From the NCBI RefSeq assembly GCF_020405225.1, contig NZ_CP084472.1:3658001-3722000 (forward strand): a DNA stretch of 64,000 nucleotides, read 5' to 3'. How positions within the stretch are numbered: the first letter of the stretch is position 1; each line of letters starts with the position of its first letter. The notes under the pieces were generated by a model. It saw only the letters and a list, made by a program, of their open reading frames with translations. It searched no databases and had not been told where the DNA came from. The stretch comes from Natrinema sp. DC36 (GTDB lineage: Archaea > Halobacteriota > Halobacteria > Halobacteriales > Natrialbaceae). The translations under genes and the position numbers were made by a program. Positions 16,220 to 26,918 of this stretch are shown one piece after another.

Positions 16220-17142
16220 TTCGCAATCTCGTCGCGAAGCGTCCCCATCTCGACCACGCGCTCGGCGTGGGCGTTGTGCTGGTGGATCGACTCGTCGTTG
16301 GACTGACTCATCGTGATCACCGCGTCGTCGGGCAGGTGGTCGAACTCGTCGACGACGCCTTCAGCTAACGCGCGCACACAATCCTCGACGAACTTCGCGT
16401 CGGCGTGGGCCTCGTAGGTCATGTGGTCCTCGTCGGGCCGCTTCGCGAGGTTGTAGATCCGCGCGCTCATCGAGTCCCGAGCGATGTCGATGATGTCGTT
16501 GAGATCGACCGCGGGATCGCCGTTCGCCTCGACGGTCAGCGTCGCGTGGCCCCGCTGTGAGTGTCCCGGCTGTGGCACCTCGTCCAGGAACTGCGTGATC
16601 GTCTCCTCCTCGACGCCGAGGTCCTCGAGGGTCTGCTTCGCGCGGGCCGTGGACATCCCCTGCGAGCAGGGACAGACCGTCATGCCGGTGACGTTCGCGC
16701 CGATCTCCTCGCGGGTTCCGTCCTCGGTGGCGGTCGCCGAGGCCACGATATCGACCGTGTGCTGGGTCTCGCGGTCGCTGGCCGGCGTCTGCTCGCGGCG
16801 CATGAACTCGGCTTCCATCGAGACCTCCGCTCTCGAGGTGTAGTCGTGTCGCTCGAGCAGGCGTTCGGCGGCCTCGCCACAGACTTCCTCGACGCCGTAG
16901 GCCTCCTCGCGGGTCGCGTCCTCGAGGATCTCGTCGATGACCTCCATGTTACGGCTCATGTCCGCGCCCTTGCGCCAGCCCGGGAGGTCGACGAAGACTT
17001 CGAATTCCGCAGTGAGGACGATCGGTCGCTTGCCCTCGCGGGCGATCTTGACGAGTTTGTCGACGCCGGTGACGCCGACCTGGCTCAGACCGACGGTGAC
17101 GTCGGGCGACGTCGCCTGCACGTCCGGCAACTGATGACTCAT
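16216..17142 (-). CDS. mptA: GTP cyclohydrolase MptA (type IB, FolE2 family)
   Basis: 308 residues. It converts GTP to 7,8-dihydroneopterin 2',3'-cyclic phosphate, the first archaeal step to tetrahydromethanopterin and folate-type pterins. Diagnostic stretches are [14 protein letters not shown] near the start, [15 protein letters not shown] with the metal-ligand Cys, [15 protein letters not shown], and the C-terminal [12 protein letters not shown]. The ATG at 17142 ([10 protein letters not shown]) is chosen over one three codons earlier. Length is normal for the family. A methenyl/formyl-folate salvage enzyme is encoded elsewhere in the window (55.5 kb). Confidence 0.94.
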
Positions 17143-17264
17143 TGCCCGCATTCAGGGTAGCGGGCGATTCAACCTTTCGGAACCAGTAGTAACTGGCTCG
17201 ACGTGGGTTCGAAGGGCTTCGATGGGGTACGGCGTTCGTCGTTGACTCGAGCGCCCCATCGTTT

Positions 17265-17303
17265 CTTTAAGTGCCTCTGGTCACAAGGTAGAGCTATGAC
17301 GGG
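17265..17303 (+). repeat. Promoter-like 40-bp repeat, copy 1
   Basis: Contains CTTTAAGTG, then the invariant TCTGGTCACAAGGT, then AGAGCTATGACGGG. The TTTAAG part looks like a TATA box and the conserved part would cover the region down to the transcription start. It lies about 200 nt before the GTG of the S2P protease gene, inside a 359-bp spacer with no other gene. Confidence 0.7.
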
Positions 17304-17501
17304 ACGGCCGCCGTTCTCTGAAACTTCGATTCGACAGTTACGACGCTCCGCCGCTCGATGCCGTTGAGATCGACGGCCGGGACGGTTCGCGTCCCGGAGC
17401 GGTCGGTGAAACGACCCCACAGTAACGGCGCTGTCGGGATCGTGCGACGCGGATTCCGACGAACCCGTCGGAACCGGTTTCCGGTCACCTAAGACCCCGG
17501 A

Positions 17502-18656
17502 GTGACAGCAGCGAGTGTGCGAAGTTACACTATCACCGAGATCTGGGATATCCCGATTCGAATCAACACATCATTATTGATCTTCCTCCCGATCCTCGCG
17601 TGGCTCATCGGGAGCGGCCAGCAGATCGAACTGTACGCCGGATTCATCGAAGGGGTCACCGGCTCCGAATTCGATCTGTCCCAGCTCCGCGCCGGGACGA
17701 CACCGTGGCTTATCGGTATCGCGGCGGCGATCGGGCTGTTCGTGAGCGTCACGCTGCACGAACTCGGCCACTCGTGGGTCGCGTTGCGGTACGGTATCGA
17801 GATCGACTCGATCACCCTGTGGATCCTCGGCGGCATCGCGTCGCTGAAGACGTTCCCGAAGGAGTGGGACCGCGAGTTCTGGATCGCCATCGCCGGCCCG
17901 CTCACGAGCGTCCTCGTCGCCGCCGTCTGTTACGCGGGCGTTCTCATCGCACCGAACTCCTTCCAGGTGTCGCGATTCATCGTCGGCTATCTGGCCCTCA
18001 CGAACCTGATACTGGCGGGATTCAATCTCCTCCCTGCGTTCCCGATGGACGGTGGACGCATCTTCCGCGCCCTCCTCGCTCGCTCCCGCCCGTACGGGAC
18101 CGCGACGCGGATCGCGGCACGAGTCGGGGTCCTCTTCGCCTTCCTGTTCGCCATCGTCGGCGTCCTCACCTTTCAGCTCATCCTCCTCCTCCTCGCCTTC
18201 TTCATCTACGGCGCCGCGACGACGGAATCGCGGTCCGTCCTCCTCGACGAACTGCTCGAGGGCATTACGGTCGGCGACATCATGACCCGAGATCCCGCGA
18301 CGATCTCGGCAGACGCGACGCTCGAGGAGTTCGGTGGCCGAATGCTTCGCGAACGCTACCCCCTTTACCTCGTTACGGATGATACCGGGGCGGTCCTCGG
18401 CATTATCACGCTCGATGACGTGCAAAAGGCTCGAGGAAAGGAGCGCGGAACGACCCGCGTCGAGGAGGTCATGCGAGTGGTCTCTCGCGTCGAGCCGACC
18501 GACGACGCCTTCGATACGTTGGCCGTGCTGAACCAGTCCGGGAGCGTGAACGCACTGGTTGAGGAAAACGGGGAACCCGTCGGTGTGCTCTCCCAATCCG
18601 ATTACGCACACGCCATGACGGTTCGCCGCGGCTTCCAGAGCGGGATCACCGGGTAA
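17502..18656 (+). CDS. Site-2-protease family (M50) metalloprotease with CBS domains
   Basis: A 384-residue membrane protease. The zinc-binding HELGH is at residues 86-90 within a helix, and the third ligand is D183 in AFPMDGGRIFRALL. There are about six membrane segments up to residue 235, followed by a pair of CBS domains (about 255-375; VGDIMTRDPATISADATLEE, GVLSQSDYAHAM), which probably sense adenosine ligands. It should cut substrates inside the membrane. The GTG at 17502 is used; a second GTG four codons later is also possible. A promoter-like repeat lies about 200 nt upstream. Confidence 0.9.
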   Translation: MTAASVRSYTITEIWDIPIRINTSLLIFLPILAWLIGSGQQIELYAGFIEGVTGSEFDLSQLRAGTTPWLIGIAAAIGLFVSVTLHELGHSWVALRYGIEIDSITLWILGGIASLKTFPKEWDREFWIAIAGPLTSVLVAAVCYAGVLIAPNSFQVSRFIVGYLALTNLILAGFNLLPAFPMDGGRIFRALLARSRPYGTATRIAARVGVLFAFLFAIVGVLTFQLILLLLAFFIYGAATTESRSVLLDELLEGITVGDIMTRDPATISADATLEEFGGRMLRERYPLYLVTDDTGAVLGIITLDDVQKARGKERGTTRVEEVMRVVSRVEPTDDAFDTLAVLNQSGSVNALVEENGEPVGVLSQSDYAHAMTVRRGFQSGITG

Positions 18657-18711
18657 TCGGACCTCTCTCCCCAGATTCCGTTTTGGTTTCCAAGTTTTCG
18701 CTCGGACCGTT

Positions 18712-18750
18712 CTTTAAGTACTTCTGGTCACAAGGTGAAGCTACGAAGGG
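18712..18750 (+). repeat. Promoter-like 40-bp repeat, copy 2
   Basis: CTTTAAGTACT, TCTGGTCACAAGGT, then GAAGCTACGAAGGG. It differs from copy 4 at only about three of 40 bases. It lies about 55 nt before the ATG of the nucleotidyltransferase gene, which it may drive. Confidence 0.72.
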
Positions 18751-18803
18751 CATTCGTCACCCGGTCTTCTCGCATTTCGTTCCCGCATACTCGAGACACA
18801 GCC

Positions 18804-19724
18804 ATGTCTCCCGTTCCAGCACACGTTCCCGAGACCGTCGACGACCACCTGACTGCGATCGAACGCGAGCACGATATCGCGGTGGCGCTGGCGGTCGCTC
18901 GCGGGAGCCACGCCTGGGGGGCGGCGAGTCCCGACAGCGACTACGACGTCGGGTTCGTCTTCGCGCCGACGGATCTGCGCCGGTACGCTCACCTCGAGGG
19001 CGCTCCCGAGACGGTCGTCGCGGACCGCGGTGAGTTCGAGTATCAGGGGTGGGACGTGCGGACGTTCGCGCGCCTGCTCGCCGACTCGAACGAGGGCGCG
19101 ATCGACCTGCTGCGGAGTCCGATCCGCTACCGCCTCGCGTACGACCCCGCCGATCTCACGGCGTATATCGAACGAACGTACAACCCGATCGACCTCTATC
19201 ACACGTGGCGCGGGATCGCAACCAGCAACTATCGCAAATACGTCTCGCACCATCTGGTCAACACCGGCGACGACACGTTTCCGATCCTCGAGGCGGGAGA
19301 CGAGACATACGTCGTCGAAGCCGACGACGGAACGATGACGGTCCCGGCCGACGACGACCGTTTCAGCGAGACACAGACCAAACCGACCGTGAAGCGAAAT
19401 CTCACGATCTGTCGGGCGGCCATGTCCGCGTCCTATCTCAAAGAGACCGGCGAGCGCGGCGAACACGAGCTGCCGGCCCTCGAGTTCGAAACCTTCCTCC
19501 GCGAGCAGGCACCCGCAGTTTTCGATGCGGATCGAATCGACCGGGCTCGCGAGTTGCTCGAGCGGAAACGAGCGGGCGACGGGGAGACCGATATCGGCGA
19601 CGCCGTCGGTGCCGAATTCGCACACCCGCCGAAGGAGATCGATCCCGCAATTCACGCACGGGGCGGGCCCGACACCGAACGGCTGAACGGGTTCATCGAC
19701 GAGATTATCGCGGCCGTCCGGTAG
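18804..19724 (+). CDS. RlaP-like nucleotidyltransferase (DNA polymerase beta superfamily)
   Basis: 306 residues. The N-terminal Pol-beta-type nucleotidyltransferase motif is complete: ARGSHAWGAASPDSDYDVGF, where GS and the D-x-D carboxylates bind metal and NTP. The remainder matches the predicted nucleotidyltransferase family (COG3541/RlaP), with WDVRTFARLLADSNEGAIDL and a helical C-terminus with the LERKRAGDGE region. In some bacteria relatives sit next to RNA ligases, but no ligase gene is adjacent here. The ATG at 18804 begins MSPVPAHVPETVDDHL. The substrate is unknown. Confidence 0.82.
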   Translation: MSPVPAHVPETVDDHLTAIEREHDIAVALAVARGSHAWGAASPDSDYDVGFVFAPTDLRRYAHLEGAPETVVADRGEFEYQGWDVRTFARLLADSNEGAIDLLRSPIRYRLAYDPADLTAYIERTYNPIDLYHTWRGIATSNYRKYVSHHLVNTGDDTFPILEAGDETYVVEADDGTMTVPADDDRFSETQTKPTVKRNLTICRAAMSASYLKETGERGEHELPALEFETFLREQAPAVFDADRIDRARELLERKRAGDGETDIGDAVGAEFAHPPKEIDPAIHARGGPDTERLNGFIDEIIAAVR

Positions 19725-19750
19725 CTCGAGCCGCGTCCCGACCCCGCTTT

Positions 19751-19790
19751 CGTTTACGTGTCTCTGGTCACAAGGTGAAGATACGACGAG
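19751..19790 (+). repeat. Promoter-like 40-bp repeat, copy 3
   Basis: The most diverged copy. The TATA-like part is CGTTTACGTG, followed by the invariant TCTGGTCACAAGGT and GAAGATACGACGAG. It lies in the spacer after the nucleotidyltransferase gene, 110 bp before copy 4. No gene starts directly after it. Confidence 0.68.
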
Positions 19791-19900
19791 AGCGACGCCC
19801 CGATTCTGCCGAGAAATCCGTTCTCGAACAGCCACGGCTCGACCTATCGATCGCTCGACGATACTCGCTGTTCCTTCGCGACTCGAGCGAGCCGTCCATC

Positions 19901-19940
19901 CTTTAAGTGCTTCTGGTCACAAGGTAGAGCTACGAAGGGC
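19901..19940 (+). repeat. Promoter-like 40-bp repeat, copy 4
   Basis: CTTTAAGTGCT, TCTGGTCACAAGGT, then AGAGCTACGAAGGGC. It lies 160 nt before the RNA polymerase epsilon gene. The bases between it and the gene show no open frame. Confidence 0.72.
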
Positions 19941-20099
19941 TTCTCGCGGACTCACTCACTCGAGAGCGAAGCGACAGCGATCGACATCATTCGAGCGCCG
20001 CTGCTATCGCCCGATACCTGTTAGAAAGGCTGTTAGTCCAGGTAATCGGCCACTAAATGGAGCGAGCCTTTTTCACTCTCCCTCTCCGACCGACAGACG

Positions 20100-20870
20100 A
20101 TGCAAGACGACGGTGCCGACCCTGGTCCAGATTCCGAGCGAGCCGCGGCGGTCGCGGACGGCGTCGAGCCCGATCCCGACTCCGAGCGCCGCCTCGAGAC
20201 CCGGCCCGGCTCCGGGTCGCTCTCCCGGGCGGATGTCCAGCGAGATTCGACGGTCCGCCAGTGGGGCGTCGTCACGCCGAGCGCGACGGTTATCGGCCGC
20301 GCCGACTCCCCCGACGCGGACCTCTCCGAGAGCGTTCGTCGCCTCCACGACGAACAGCACGCGGCGACGCCGGGCTACAGCGAACGCGCTCACCACCTCG
20401 ATCGGCTGCGAACCACCCAGGCGCTGTGCAACGCCCTCGAGGTGACGCCGTGGCAGCGCGATCTGGCACTCGGCGTCATGGACGAGATCGATCTCACCGA
20501 GTTCGGCAGCCAGCGAGCGATCGAGAAGGTCGCGCTGGTGGCGATCCGCCACGTCGTCGACGTCGACCGCCAGCAGTACTTCGGGCTGGACGAGATCGAC
20601 GCCCAGACGCTTTCCGCCGACCGAATGGAGGAGCTGTTCGCCCAGTACCGCGCCCACGATATCACCGATGAGGAATCGTTCAAGCGGCTCGCGGCCGACT
20701 ACGGACTGGACACGACGAGTCTGAACCGGCTCCGCCGCGTGCTGAAATCCCAGCTCGAGGACGAGTTGCCGGCCTACGGCCGCAACCCGTACCGGGATCC
20801 GAACCTGCCGGACGTGAGGGACGCCGAGACGAACGCTGCCGACGCGGCCGCCTCCGGATCGGAGAGCTAA
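20100..20870 (+). CDS. DNA-directed RNA polymerase subunit epsilon (haloarchaeal)
   Basis: 256 residues resembling the haloarchaeal RNAP epsilon family: RQWGVVTPSATVIGRADS, then an all-helical core (about residues 100-235) with LEVTPWQRDLALGVMDEIDL and FGSQRAIEKVALVAIRHVV. The subunit was described with purified halobacterial RNA polymerase and its role is poorly understood. The core has the look of a cyclin/TFB-like helical fold (my inference). The N-terminus and C-terminus are acidic and low-complexity. It is notable that an island protein at 36.8-37.3 kb shows the same core pattern. Confidence 0.8.
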   Translation: MQDDGADPGPDSERAAAVADGVEPDPDSERRLETRPGSGSLSRADVQRDSTVRQWGVVTPSATVIGRADSPDADLSESVRRLHDEQHAATPGYSERAHHLDRLRTTQALCNALEVTPWQRDLALGVMDEIDLTEFGSQRAIEKVALVAIRHVVDVDRQQYFGLDEIDAQTLSADRMEELFAQYRAHDITDEESFKRLAADYGLDTTSLNRLRRVLKSQLEDELPAYGRNPYRDPNLPDVRDAETNAADAAASGSES

Positions 20871-21047
20871 CGGGCTGGGCTATCAACTCAGACCGGTGCT
20901 ACGCCGCAGCCACCTCTCACTGGCCCGTCGTCACCCAACCTCGAGCTATCTCCACCCCTTCTCGAGCCACATGCACTTCGTCTCGAGCCGCCTCCAGCCG
21001 ACTGCCGGTGACCCGCGACTTTTCCGTGGTGACTGCCTAGCATCGCT

Positions 21048-25206: not shown

Positions 25207-25364
25207 TTTCGGCACGGAGACTCACAACAGAACCGGACGGCGGACCTGCGTCCCCTGACGTGGCTCTCGAGCACTGCTGATTCGACTGGAACGGTCGCTC
25301 CCCGACACCCCATCGGGTCGATTACATACGGTTTGATATGGGTCCCGTGGCTAGTACCGACGAA

Positions 25365-26918
25365 ATGCGCCGATCGCTCGTGATCGCGGCCGTGTTACTC
25401 GCCCTTTCGTTCGTGCTCGTCGGCGGCCCCTCGATGTTGCTGTCGCTGTCGACCGGCCAGCTCACGGCCGAGGATCCGGCCCCGAAGAAGCCGACTCCCG
25501 AGGTCGTCTCGTTCGATGACTCCGAGAGCGGGTTCTGGGAGTATCTCAGTCCGCGGGAGGGGTTCCAGAAGCGCAGTCCGATCAACGTGATCGTCCGCGG
25601 TGACGTCGACGATATCGAACGAATACTGACCGAATCGGGCGGCGGCGACTGGTCGGAAATCAACGAATCGGAGGAAGAGGCGGTGCCGGATACGTACGCA
25701 CTGACCGGTGGTGAAAACGTCTCTGAGAACGAGACCGATTCGGCCGCCGACGCGACGAACGATTCGGCCACCAATACGACCGCCGACGCGACGAACGATT
25801 CGGCCACCAATACGACCGCCAACGCGACGAACGATTCGGCCACCAATACGACCGCCAACGCGACGAACGATTCGGCCGACAATACGACCGCAGACGAACC
25901 GCCAGCGGACGAACGGCGTGGACGAATCCCCTCTCTCAACTGGGGTGAGGCCGACGGCGGCGTCCGCTACGCCTACATCGACCCCGGCCCGAACGAGAGC
26001 GGCTACTGGACGACCGAGACGCTCCAGCTCGAGGACGGCAATTACTACGGACAGCGATATCACATCCGGCTCTACGAGAGTCCCAACGAGGACGACGACT
26101 GGGTCGCCATGCAGACGCACTCCGAACACTTCGACTGGTTCACGTTGCAACACCGCGTTCACGGGTCCCAGTCCGCCCAGCGAAAAGTCGAGTCCAACTT
26201 CATGGCTCACCCGCAAGTAGACGTTCAGGACGACGTCAGCCGCATCTACCTCGATAACGGCAACTCCTCCGACGCAGACGGTTGGGCTACCCTCGTCGAA
26301 CTCGCCGGATTCCTCGTCATCCCCACGCTGGTCGGCATACGGTCCGGTAGGCGCGCCGCCGACGCTGCGAGCGACGCCGGCCGGTCTGCCGAACAGGTCC
26401 GCCAGCGGACGCCCGACGCCATCGACGATCACCTGACCGACGTCGACCGCCGGCGGATCGCCGCCGCCTACGATCGCGTCGAGGTCGGCCATCTCCTCCT
26501 CGTCGTCGCCGTCGTCGCGCTGTACCTCGGCGTCCGGGCGGCCGGCATCTTCCTCGAGCACCGCGCCGAGTTCCTCACGCCCCACCAGATCGCCGCGCTG
26601 CTCTATCCGGTGATCGGCATTGGCATCCCGGTGGCCACCTACCTGATCGCACGCGGGCTCACGCGCCGACTCGACGCCGCCGTCGTCGCCGCGGGCTCGC
26701 TCGCGGTCGCGGTCTGGCTCGACTACGGCATGCTCGGCGTCGACGCGCTCCCCCTCGAGGTCGTCGTCCAGCGCATGCTCGTCGTCGTCGCGCTCGGCCT
26801 GATCGCCGGCGGCGCGGCCAAACGCGCGGCTCGCGACTCGAAGTTCAACGACATGCTGCTGGTCGGGACCGCGATGTGGCTGTTGGTACTGGTCGGAACG
26901 CTGTTCGGCTACCTCTGA
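25365..26918 (+). CDS. Polytopic membrane protein with sequon-rich extracellular repeat
   Basis: 517 residues from the ATG at 25365 (an in-frame ATG at 25338 is possible). Order: an N-terminal anchor (about 2-24); an extracellular region with four tandem 12-residue repeats of the type DATNDSATNTTA; a folded domain of unknown type (about 185-300; NYYGQRYHIRLYESPNEDDD); a hydrophobic segment; then a C-terminal block of four or five helices from about residue 370. Each repeat unit holds two or three N-x-S/T sequons, so heavy N-glycosylation of a flexible stalk is likely. Function is unknown. Confidence 0.72.
   Translation: MRRSLVIAAVLLALSFVLVGGPSMLLSLSTGQLTAEDPAPKKPTPEVVSFDDSESGFWEYLSPREGFQKRSPINVIVRGDVDDIERILTESGGGDWSEINESEEEAVPDTYALTGGENVSENETDSAADATNDSATNTTADATNDSATNTTANATNDSATNTTANATNDSADNTTADEPPADERRGRIPSLNWGEADGGVRYAYIDPGPNESGYWTTETLQLEDGNYYGQRYHIRLYESPNEDDDWVAMQTHSEHFDWFTLQHRVHGSQSAQRKVESNFMAHPQVDVQDDVSRIYLDNGNSSDADGWATLVELAGFLVIPTLVGIRSGRRAADAASDAGRSAEQVRQRTPDAIDDHLTDVDRRRIAAAYDRVEVGHLLLVVAVVALYLGVRAAGIFLEHRAEFLTPHQIAALLYPVIGIGIPVATYLIARGLTRRLDAAVVAAGSLAVAVWLDYGMLGVDALPLEVVVQRMLVVVALGLIAGGAAKRAARDSKFNDMLLVGTAMWLLVLVGTLFGYL
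25749..25892 (+). repeat. Four tandem 36-bp repeats inside the membrane-protein gene
   Basis: Units begin at 25749, 25785, 25821 and 25857. Units 1 and 2 are identical, unit 3 differs in its first base, and unit 4 has a few more changes. They are in frame and encode the 12-residue sequon repeats. Length variation by slippage between strains would be expected. Confidence 0.93.

Follow-up and report, generated by a model that had tools for sequence, protein, structure and literature searches.

A conserved promoter-like element of haloarchaea and its co-occurrence with the presumed gene for RNA polymerase subunit epsilon

The window (the whole 64-kb stretch of DNA that was analysed) carries four copies of a promoter-like element, all on the + strand, in a cluster with the genes for an S2P-type M50 protease with CBS domains (17502..18656, +; PF02163 and PF00571), an RlaP-type nucleotidyltransferase (18804..19724, +; PF10127, E 4e-28) and a presumed homologue of RNA polymerase subunit epsilon (rpoeps; 20100..20870, +), whose name goes back to an earlier reading of the sequence. 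The core of the element, the 14-mer TCTGGTCACAAGGT, is found exactly at positions 17276, 18723, 19763 and 19912 (4 matches vs. about 0.0005 expected in the window from a simple base count), and a TATA-like box starts exactly 10 bp 5' of it in every copy (TTTAAG in copies 1, 2 and 4, TTTACG in copy 3), which bears out an earlier note on this DNA that described four promoter-like copies with a perfect 14-base core just behind TTTAAG or TTTACG. Copy 1 (17255..17304, +, class B, R1 model match E 7e-14) has its TTTAAG at 17266, its core at 17276-17289 and its predicted start at about 17288-17299. Copy 2 (18703..18752, +, class A, R1 model match) has TTTAAG at 18713 and the core at 18723-18736, copy 3 (19742..19792, +, class B, R1 model match) has TTTACG at 19753 and the core at 19763-19776, and copy 4 (19891..19941, +, class A), the best R1 model match of the genome, has TTTAAG at 19902 and the core at 19912-19925. 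The two classes are separated by the base at core position +24 (class A, GAAGGG..TTTTCG; class B, GACGGGA..TTCTC). TrmB-like genes are located near the cluster.

Identity among the copies is 72-88% over 43 bp (-12 to +30 from the start of the 14-mer), whereas that of their flanks is near chance, with means of 33% over 100 bp upstream and 26% over 100 bp downstream; the four copies are therefore not recent duplicates, and recent duplication, which had been named as fatal to a regulatory role, is ruled out by these unrelated flanks. Conservation as such was described correctly, but the conserved unit measures about 50 bp rather than 40 bp. Regarding the genes behind the copies, the distance from core start to ATG is 81 bp for copy 2 and the RlaP-type gene and 188 bp for copy 4 and epsilon; both arrangements are common across the family, and the placement of class A before rlaP is syntenic among the family loci. 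The proposed assignment of copies 1, 2 and 4 to S2P, the nucleotidyltransferase and epsilon thus holds for copies 2 and 4. It is doubtful for copy 1, whose core starts 226 bp before the S2P gene: among 59 further family loci that were mapped, just 2 gave an S2P match, and in many family loci without S2P a class-B copy follows mptA. From its rarity, the S2P gene looks inserted, and it is probably an insert of this cluster between copy 1 and rlaP.

The common order in the family is mptA (on the opposite strand), B, A, rlaP, B, A, epsilon; class A often stands directly before rlaP and epsilon and class B further upstream in tandem, with exceptions both ways. Neighbouring sites are at least 108 bp apart and never closer, a distance wide enough for a promoter plus a transcript of about 70 nt. 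The exact 14-mer is confined to its four places in the window within the 5.1-Mb genome, so that the genome search for it that had been suggested returns nothing further. A 54-nt sequence-only model, trained on 49 diverse sites, detects six in the genome at E 2.5e-9 or better (the four in the window plus C1:3581664 and C1:3444487), with no further match up to E=1. One of the two additional sites lies 196 bp before a GNAT acetyltransferase gene; the other is in a gap and has no gene downstream in the sense direction. These two sites, the two copy classes and the link to epsilon at genome level were overlooked by the earlier note.

Among the 125 genomes of the family, 98 contain the exact 14-mer, mostly in co-oriented clusters, while the reversed 14-mer, used as a control, gave one match in all over the same 125 genomes. 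In the family loci the exact core follows 173 TTTAMGT boxes and a core with 1-3 mismatches follows 79 more; the invariance claimed for the 14-mer therefore applies to the four window copies but not to the relatives. The anatomy was determined from 183 family sites, which were chosen for an exact core. The conserved block begins about 20 bp upstream of the core start and ends some 30-40 bp downstream of it; its parts are, in this order, a C/T-rich stretch, the TTTAAGT box, three variable bases, the core and RRAGMTAYGAMGGG, after which conservation decays. The relative entropy is about 77 bits over 67 nt (for sites chosen for an exact core), and the TATA-like box stands at a fixed spacing from the core in all sites used. 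The reading as a conserved promoter-like element with a fixed TATA spacing is supported.

Haloarchaeal basal promoters consist of a TATA box, a BRE, for which CGAAA has been proposed, and WW at -10 (PMC4983044). The element resembles them in its TATA-type box and in the expected distance to the start, but differs in that A is nearly absent before the TATA box and in the long fixed core between the TATA box and the start. The A counts at the three bases before TTTAAG are 2, 0 and 7 of 183, these positions being rich in T and C instead, and an A-rich BRE just upstream of the TATA box is not seen in the 183 family sites. Assuming ordinary archaeal spacing, the start would fall about 22-33 bp after the TATA box, which would leave most or all of the core untranscribed.

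Outside the family, TTTAMGTNNNTCTGGTCACAAGGT is matched with at most two mismatches in 33 genomes, and the consensus reads TTTAAGTNNTTCT[GC]G[TC]NA[CT]AA[GC]G. The named matches of the pattern are nearly all Natrialbaceae, with one Halorientalis, and variants of the element occur in further haloarchaeal families. This distribution and the unrelated flanks of the four copies show that the element is old. In the literature searched, the motif strings tried were absent from relevant papers and matched only in unrelated ones.

The distributions of the element and of epsilon were compared in the same 392 genomes of the order, with epsilon detected by profile search (195 matches, of which 15 weak ones with E about 1e-11 to 1e-22 were left out, giving 180 genomes) and the element by the 54-nt model (E 0.001 or better, giving 175 genomes; negatives beyond the first 20 genomes were counted by subtraction). 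Both were present in 174 genomes, epsilon only in 6, the element only in 1 and neither in 211 (phi 0.96); by genus the respective numbers were 40, 2, 0 and 53. The linkage between element and epsilon is a firm result. The p-values overstate it, since the genomes are not independent, and they are outweighed by the contrasts within genus g11, within family f5 and among the genera of f4, f6, f7 and f12. Within g11 (family f1), G030 and G032 have both and G029, G031 and G033 have neither, and in f5 both a full epsilon match and the element occur in G323 and in no other genome. The epsilon-only genomes are five of f4 genus g69 and G309, whose epsilon match is divergent. G262, the one genome with the element but without epsilon, is 87% complete; two of its four sites fall within the terminal 450 bp of a contig and come after dsbA. 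At the corresponding place in sister genomes (loci L147-L149) epsilon is the next gene, and its lack in G262 is apparently an assembly gap. With this exception the 54-nt model found no element in epsilon-less haloarchaea among the 392 genomes, although a strongly diverged element in such a genome could be missed, as the model was trained on sites of epsilon genomes. If all sites were promoters of epsilon itself, their absence together with the gene would carry little information; about 61 of the 101 sites in 13 genomes, however, are over 10 kb away from epsilon or sit on a different contig, and the element is thus not only a promoter of epsilon. Another gene could have a distribution equal to that of the element. 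RlaP was considered as such a partner and rejected: outside the family it occurs in 11 genomes, of which only 3 have the element. In genus g14 (G042, G043, G046, G047 and G048) the RlaP matches come in two or three separate pieces, so that the gene there has inserts or is broken.

Around the epsilon genes, a sense site lies within 600 bp upstream in 46 of 60 loci and a site is present anywhere in the stretch in 52 of 60; some epsilon genes (e.g., L260 and L273) have no sense site upstream, and antisense sites lie beyond the 3' end of epsilon in 15 of 60. In L236-L245, L251, L264 and L265 (mostly family f17) the antisense elements are found just past the 3' end and point towards epsilon, often two or three in tandem. 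A distant epsilon paralogue of G209 (L392 1480-2624, C4) has its own element 230 bp upstream.

A 1983 report described epsilon with purified polymerase and, according to the passages of PMC8305020 covered here, its relevance was called enigmatic in that 2021 survey; native DNA was transcribed well by polymerase with epsilon and poorly without it (PMC8305020, citing Madon and Zillig 1983). The described rpoeps (OE_1279R; Madon and Zillig 1983, Leffers 1989, cited in PMC8305020) is presumed to belong to the same protein family, and its distribution over a subset of haloarchaea, as given in those passages, agrees with the one observed here; a promoter class, target genes or a TFIIB-like fold are not mentioned in them. 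In the present analysis epsilon gave no Pfam family match, and a sequence search of the PDB returned nothing credible. An AlphaFold2 model (14 sequences, mean pLDDT 64) has a helical core of usable confidence at about residues 90-222, with one predicted cyclin fold at about residues 90-223 and with residues 1-68 below pLDDT 50. The best Foldseek matches of the model were cyclins, Brf2 and TFIIB, none with E below 0.5, and VIA-align gave Z 10-11 for a CDK8-module cyclin, Brf2 (10.8), TFIIB and archaeal TFB (10.0), values that, near 10, helical models can reach by chance according to the tool's note. The cyclin fold predicted from this model, resembling those of TFIIB, Brf2 and archaeal TFB, is therefore suggestive only. 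With these factors (Brf2 at Pol III type 3 promoters, TFIIB or archaeal TFB at BRE and TATA box) epsilon would have this predicted fold in common, and like them it would work beside TBP at a TATA box. Unlike TFIIB, TFB and Brf2, epsilon has one predicted cyclin domain and not two, a zinc ribbon is not evident in its sequence (no pair of CxxC motifs is present in epsilon sequences), and its contact with DNA is a putative one. In TFIIB-type factors the N-terminal cyclin domain touches DNA downstream of the TATA box.

Many dispersed sites in other families have no sense gene within 500 bp (ORF calls around these sites are approximate, as they come from a simple codon model), which favours short units of roughly 70-100 nt behind the sites, mostly non-coding in appearance; these may be small RNA genes. 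The suggestion that the copies could be small-RNA promoters is in line with this, in that many copies elsewhere resemble promoters of short non-coding units. Rfam gave nothing near the gathering score for positions 16500-21000 of the window, and for a shared RNA fold downstream the mean z was near 0 over 183 family sites (65 A, 118 B) and 140 outside sites. Only in G323 (L370-L374) and G237 (L387-L388) were stable hairpins seen directly downstream of the predicted start, and their sequences differ. A small peptide was considered as the product and rejected, because the ATG in GCTATGACGGGA is present in part of the copies only (T there in 70 of 183) and the frame is not kept by eye. The dispersed copies of G271 (L355-L358) appear to share an inverted repeat, GTTAGTA...TACTAAC, which is situated roughly 85-95 nt downstream of the core and may be a terminator. 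Three copies in G018 (L384, L385 and L386) also agree around the core, over 60 bp or more on its upstream side and about 75 bp on its downstream side, so that this unit was copied together with its flanks.

The reading regarded as somewhat better than evenly probable is that the element represents a dedicated haloarchaeal promoter class, the core of which is read by epsilon, proposed as reader on account of the co-occurrence and the predicted cyclin fold, with a helping role in initiation. TBP would bind the TATA box (TTTAAGT), while epsilon, a polymerase-associated protein with one predicted TFIIB/TFB-like cyclin domain, would read the stretch from 3-4 bp downstream of the TATA box to a few bases before the predicted start, and would thereby aid the polymerase in starting at these promoters. 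The near-absence of A before the TATA box, unlike the CGAAA of the proposed BRE, would fit a need for such a helper. Binding by epsilon would be direct and control positive rather than negative, with starts at about the predicted positions; the targets of epsilon would then be its own gene, a small number of nearby genes (here rlaP) and short units, arranged in tandem or scattered, that mostly look non-coding. The five g69 genomes with epsilon but without the element run counter to this mechanism, as do the epsilon genes that have no sense site upstream and the modest quality of the fold prediction.

The main rival is that the core is the operator of a separate regulator (activator or repressor), epsilon being one of its targets and lost along with it. 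This is considered unlikely, though with a sizeable share of the probability: a fixed position between the TATA box and the start would be suitable for an operator, a site lies upstream of most epsilon genes and TrmB-like genes lie near the window cluster, but the neighbours at dispersed sites are varied, no other partner is known here, and sites beyond the family still accompany epsilon in the absence of rlaP. Small RNA genes whose products, in a manner reminiscent of 6S RNA, would bind to polymerase or epsilon or regulate them, with a promoter conserved because the RNAs must be co-expressed, appear improbable. The tandem units never closer than 108 bp, the sites without a sense gene behind them, the sites on both sides of epsilon, some of them antisense, and the lineage-specific hairpins behind the start would agree with such genes, whereas conservation is strongest in the part expected to be untranscribed and neither a shared fold nor an Rfam match was obtained. 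Known 6S-type or tandem regulatory small RNAs are similar in their short units, several tandem copies and a link to a polymerase gene, but differ from the units considered here, which have no Rfam match and, in most lineages, no conserved fold.

Two further explanations are given very little weight. That the copies are a mobile short repeat with an incidental promoter, as the earlier note had also suggested, is largely refuted for the window by flanks near chance and by clusters that are syntenic over genera, even if the three G018 copies have flanks in common too. It is equally hard to believe that these are ordinary strong promoters, alike because haloarchaeal promoters are alike: the TATA box and its spacing to the predicted start are normal, but about 77 bits over 67 nt (exact-core sites), six sites and none weaker in a 5-Mb genome, and absence from epsilon-less haloarchaea by the 54-nt model all speak against it.

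A wider form of the preferred reading, in which epsilon reads the core, is put forward more tentatively, as a possible rather than a probable one: epsilon might act as a TFIIB-like initiation factor that is dedicated to a small class of promoters, mainly those of short non-coding RNAs and of its own gene, in an archaeal parallel to the way in which Brf2 divides the work at Pol III type 3 promoters; many outputs of the element resemble short RNAs in this respect. If true, archaea would have in epsilon a polymerase subunit that is restricted to a lineage and serves a promoter class of its own. As a defined promoter set is present only where the epsilon gene is present, its role is directly testable. 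Elsewhere in the window, the ORF at 25338-26918 contains, towards its N-terminus, an imperfect repeat (DATNDSATNTTA type).
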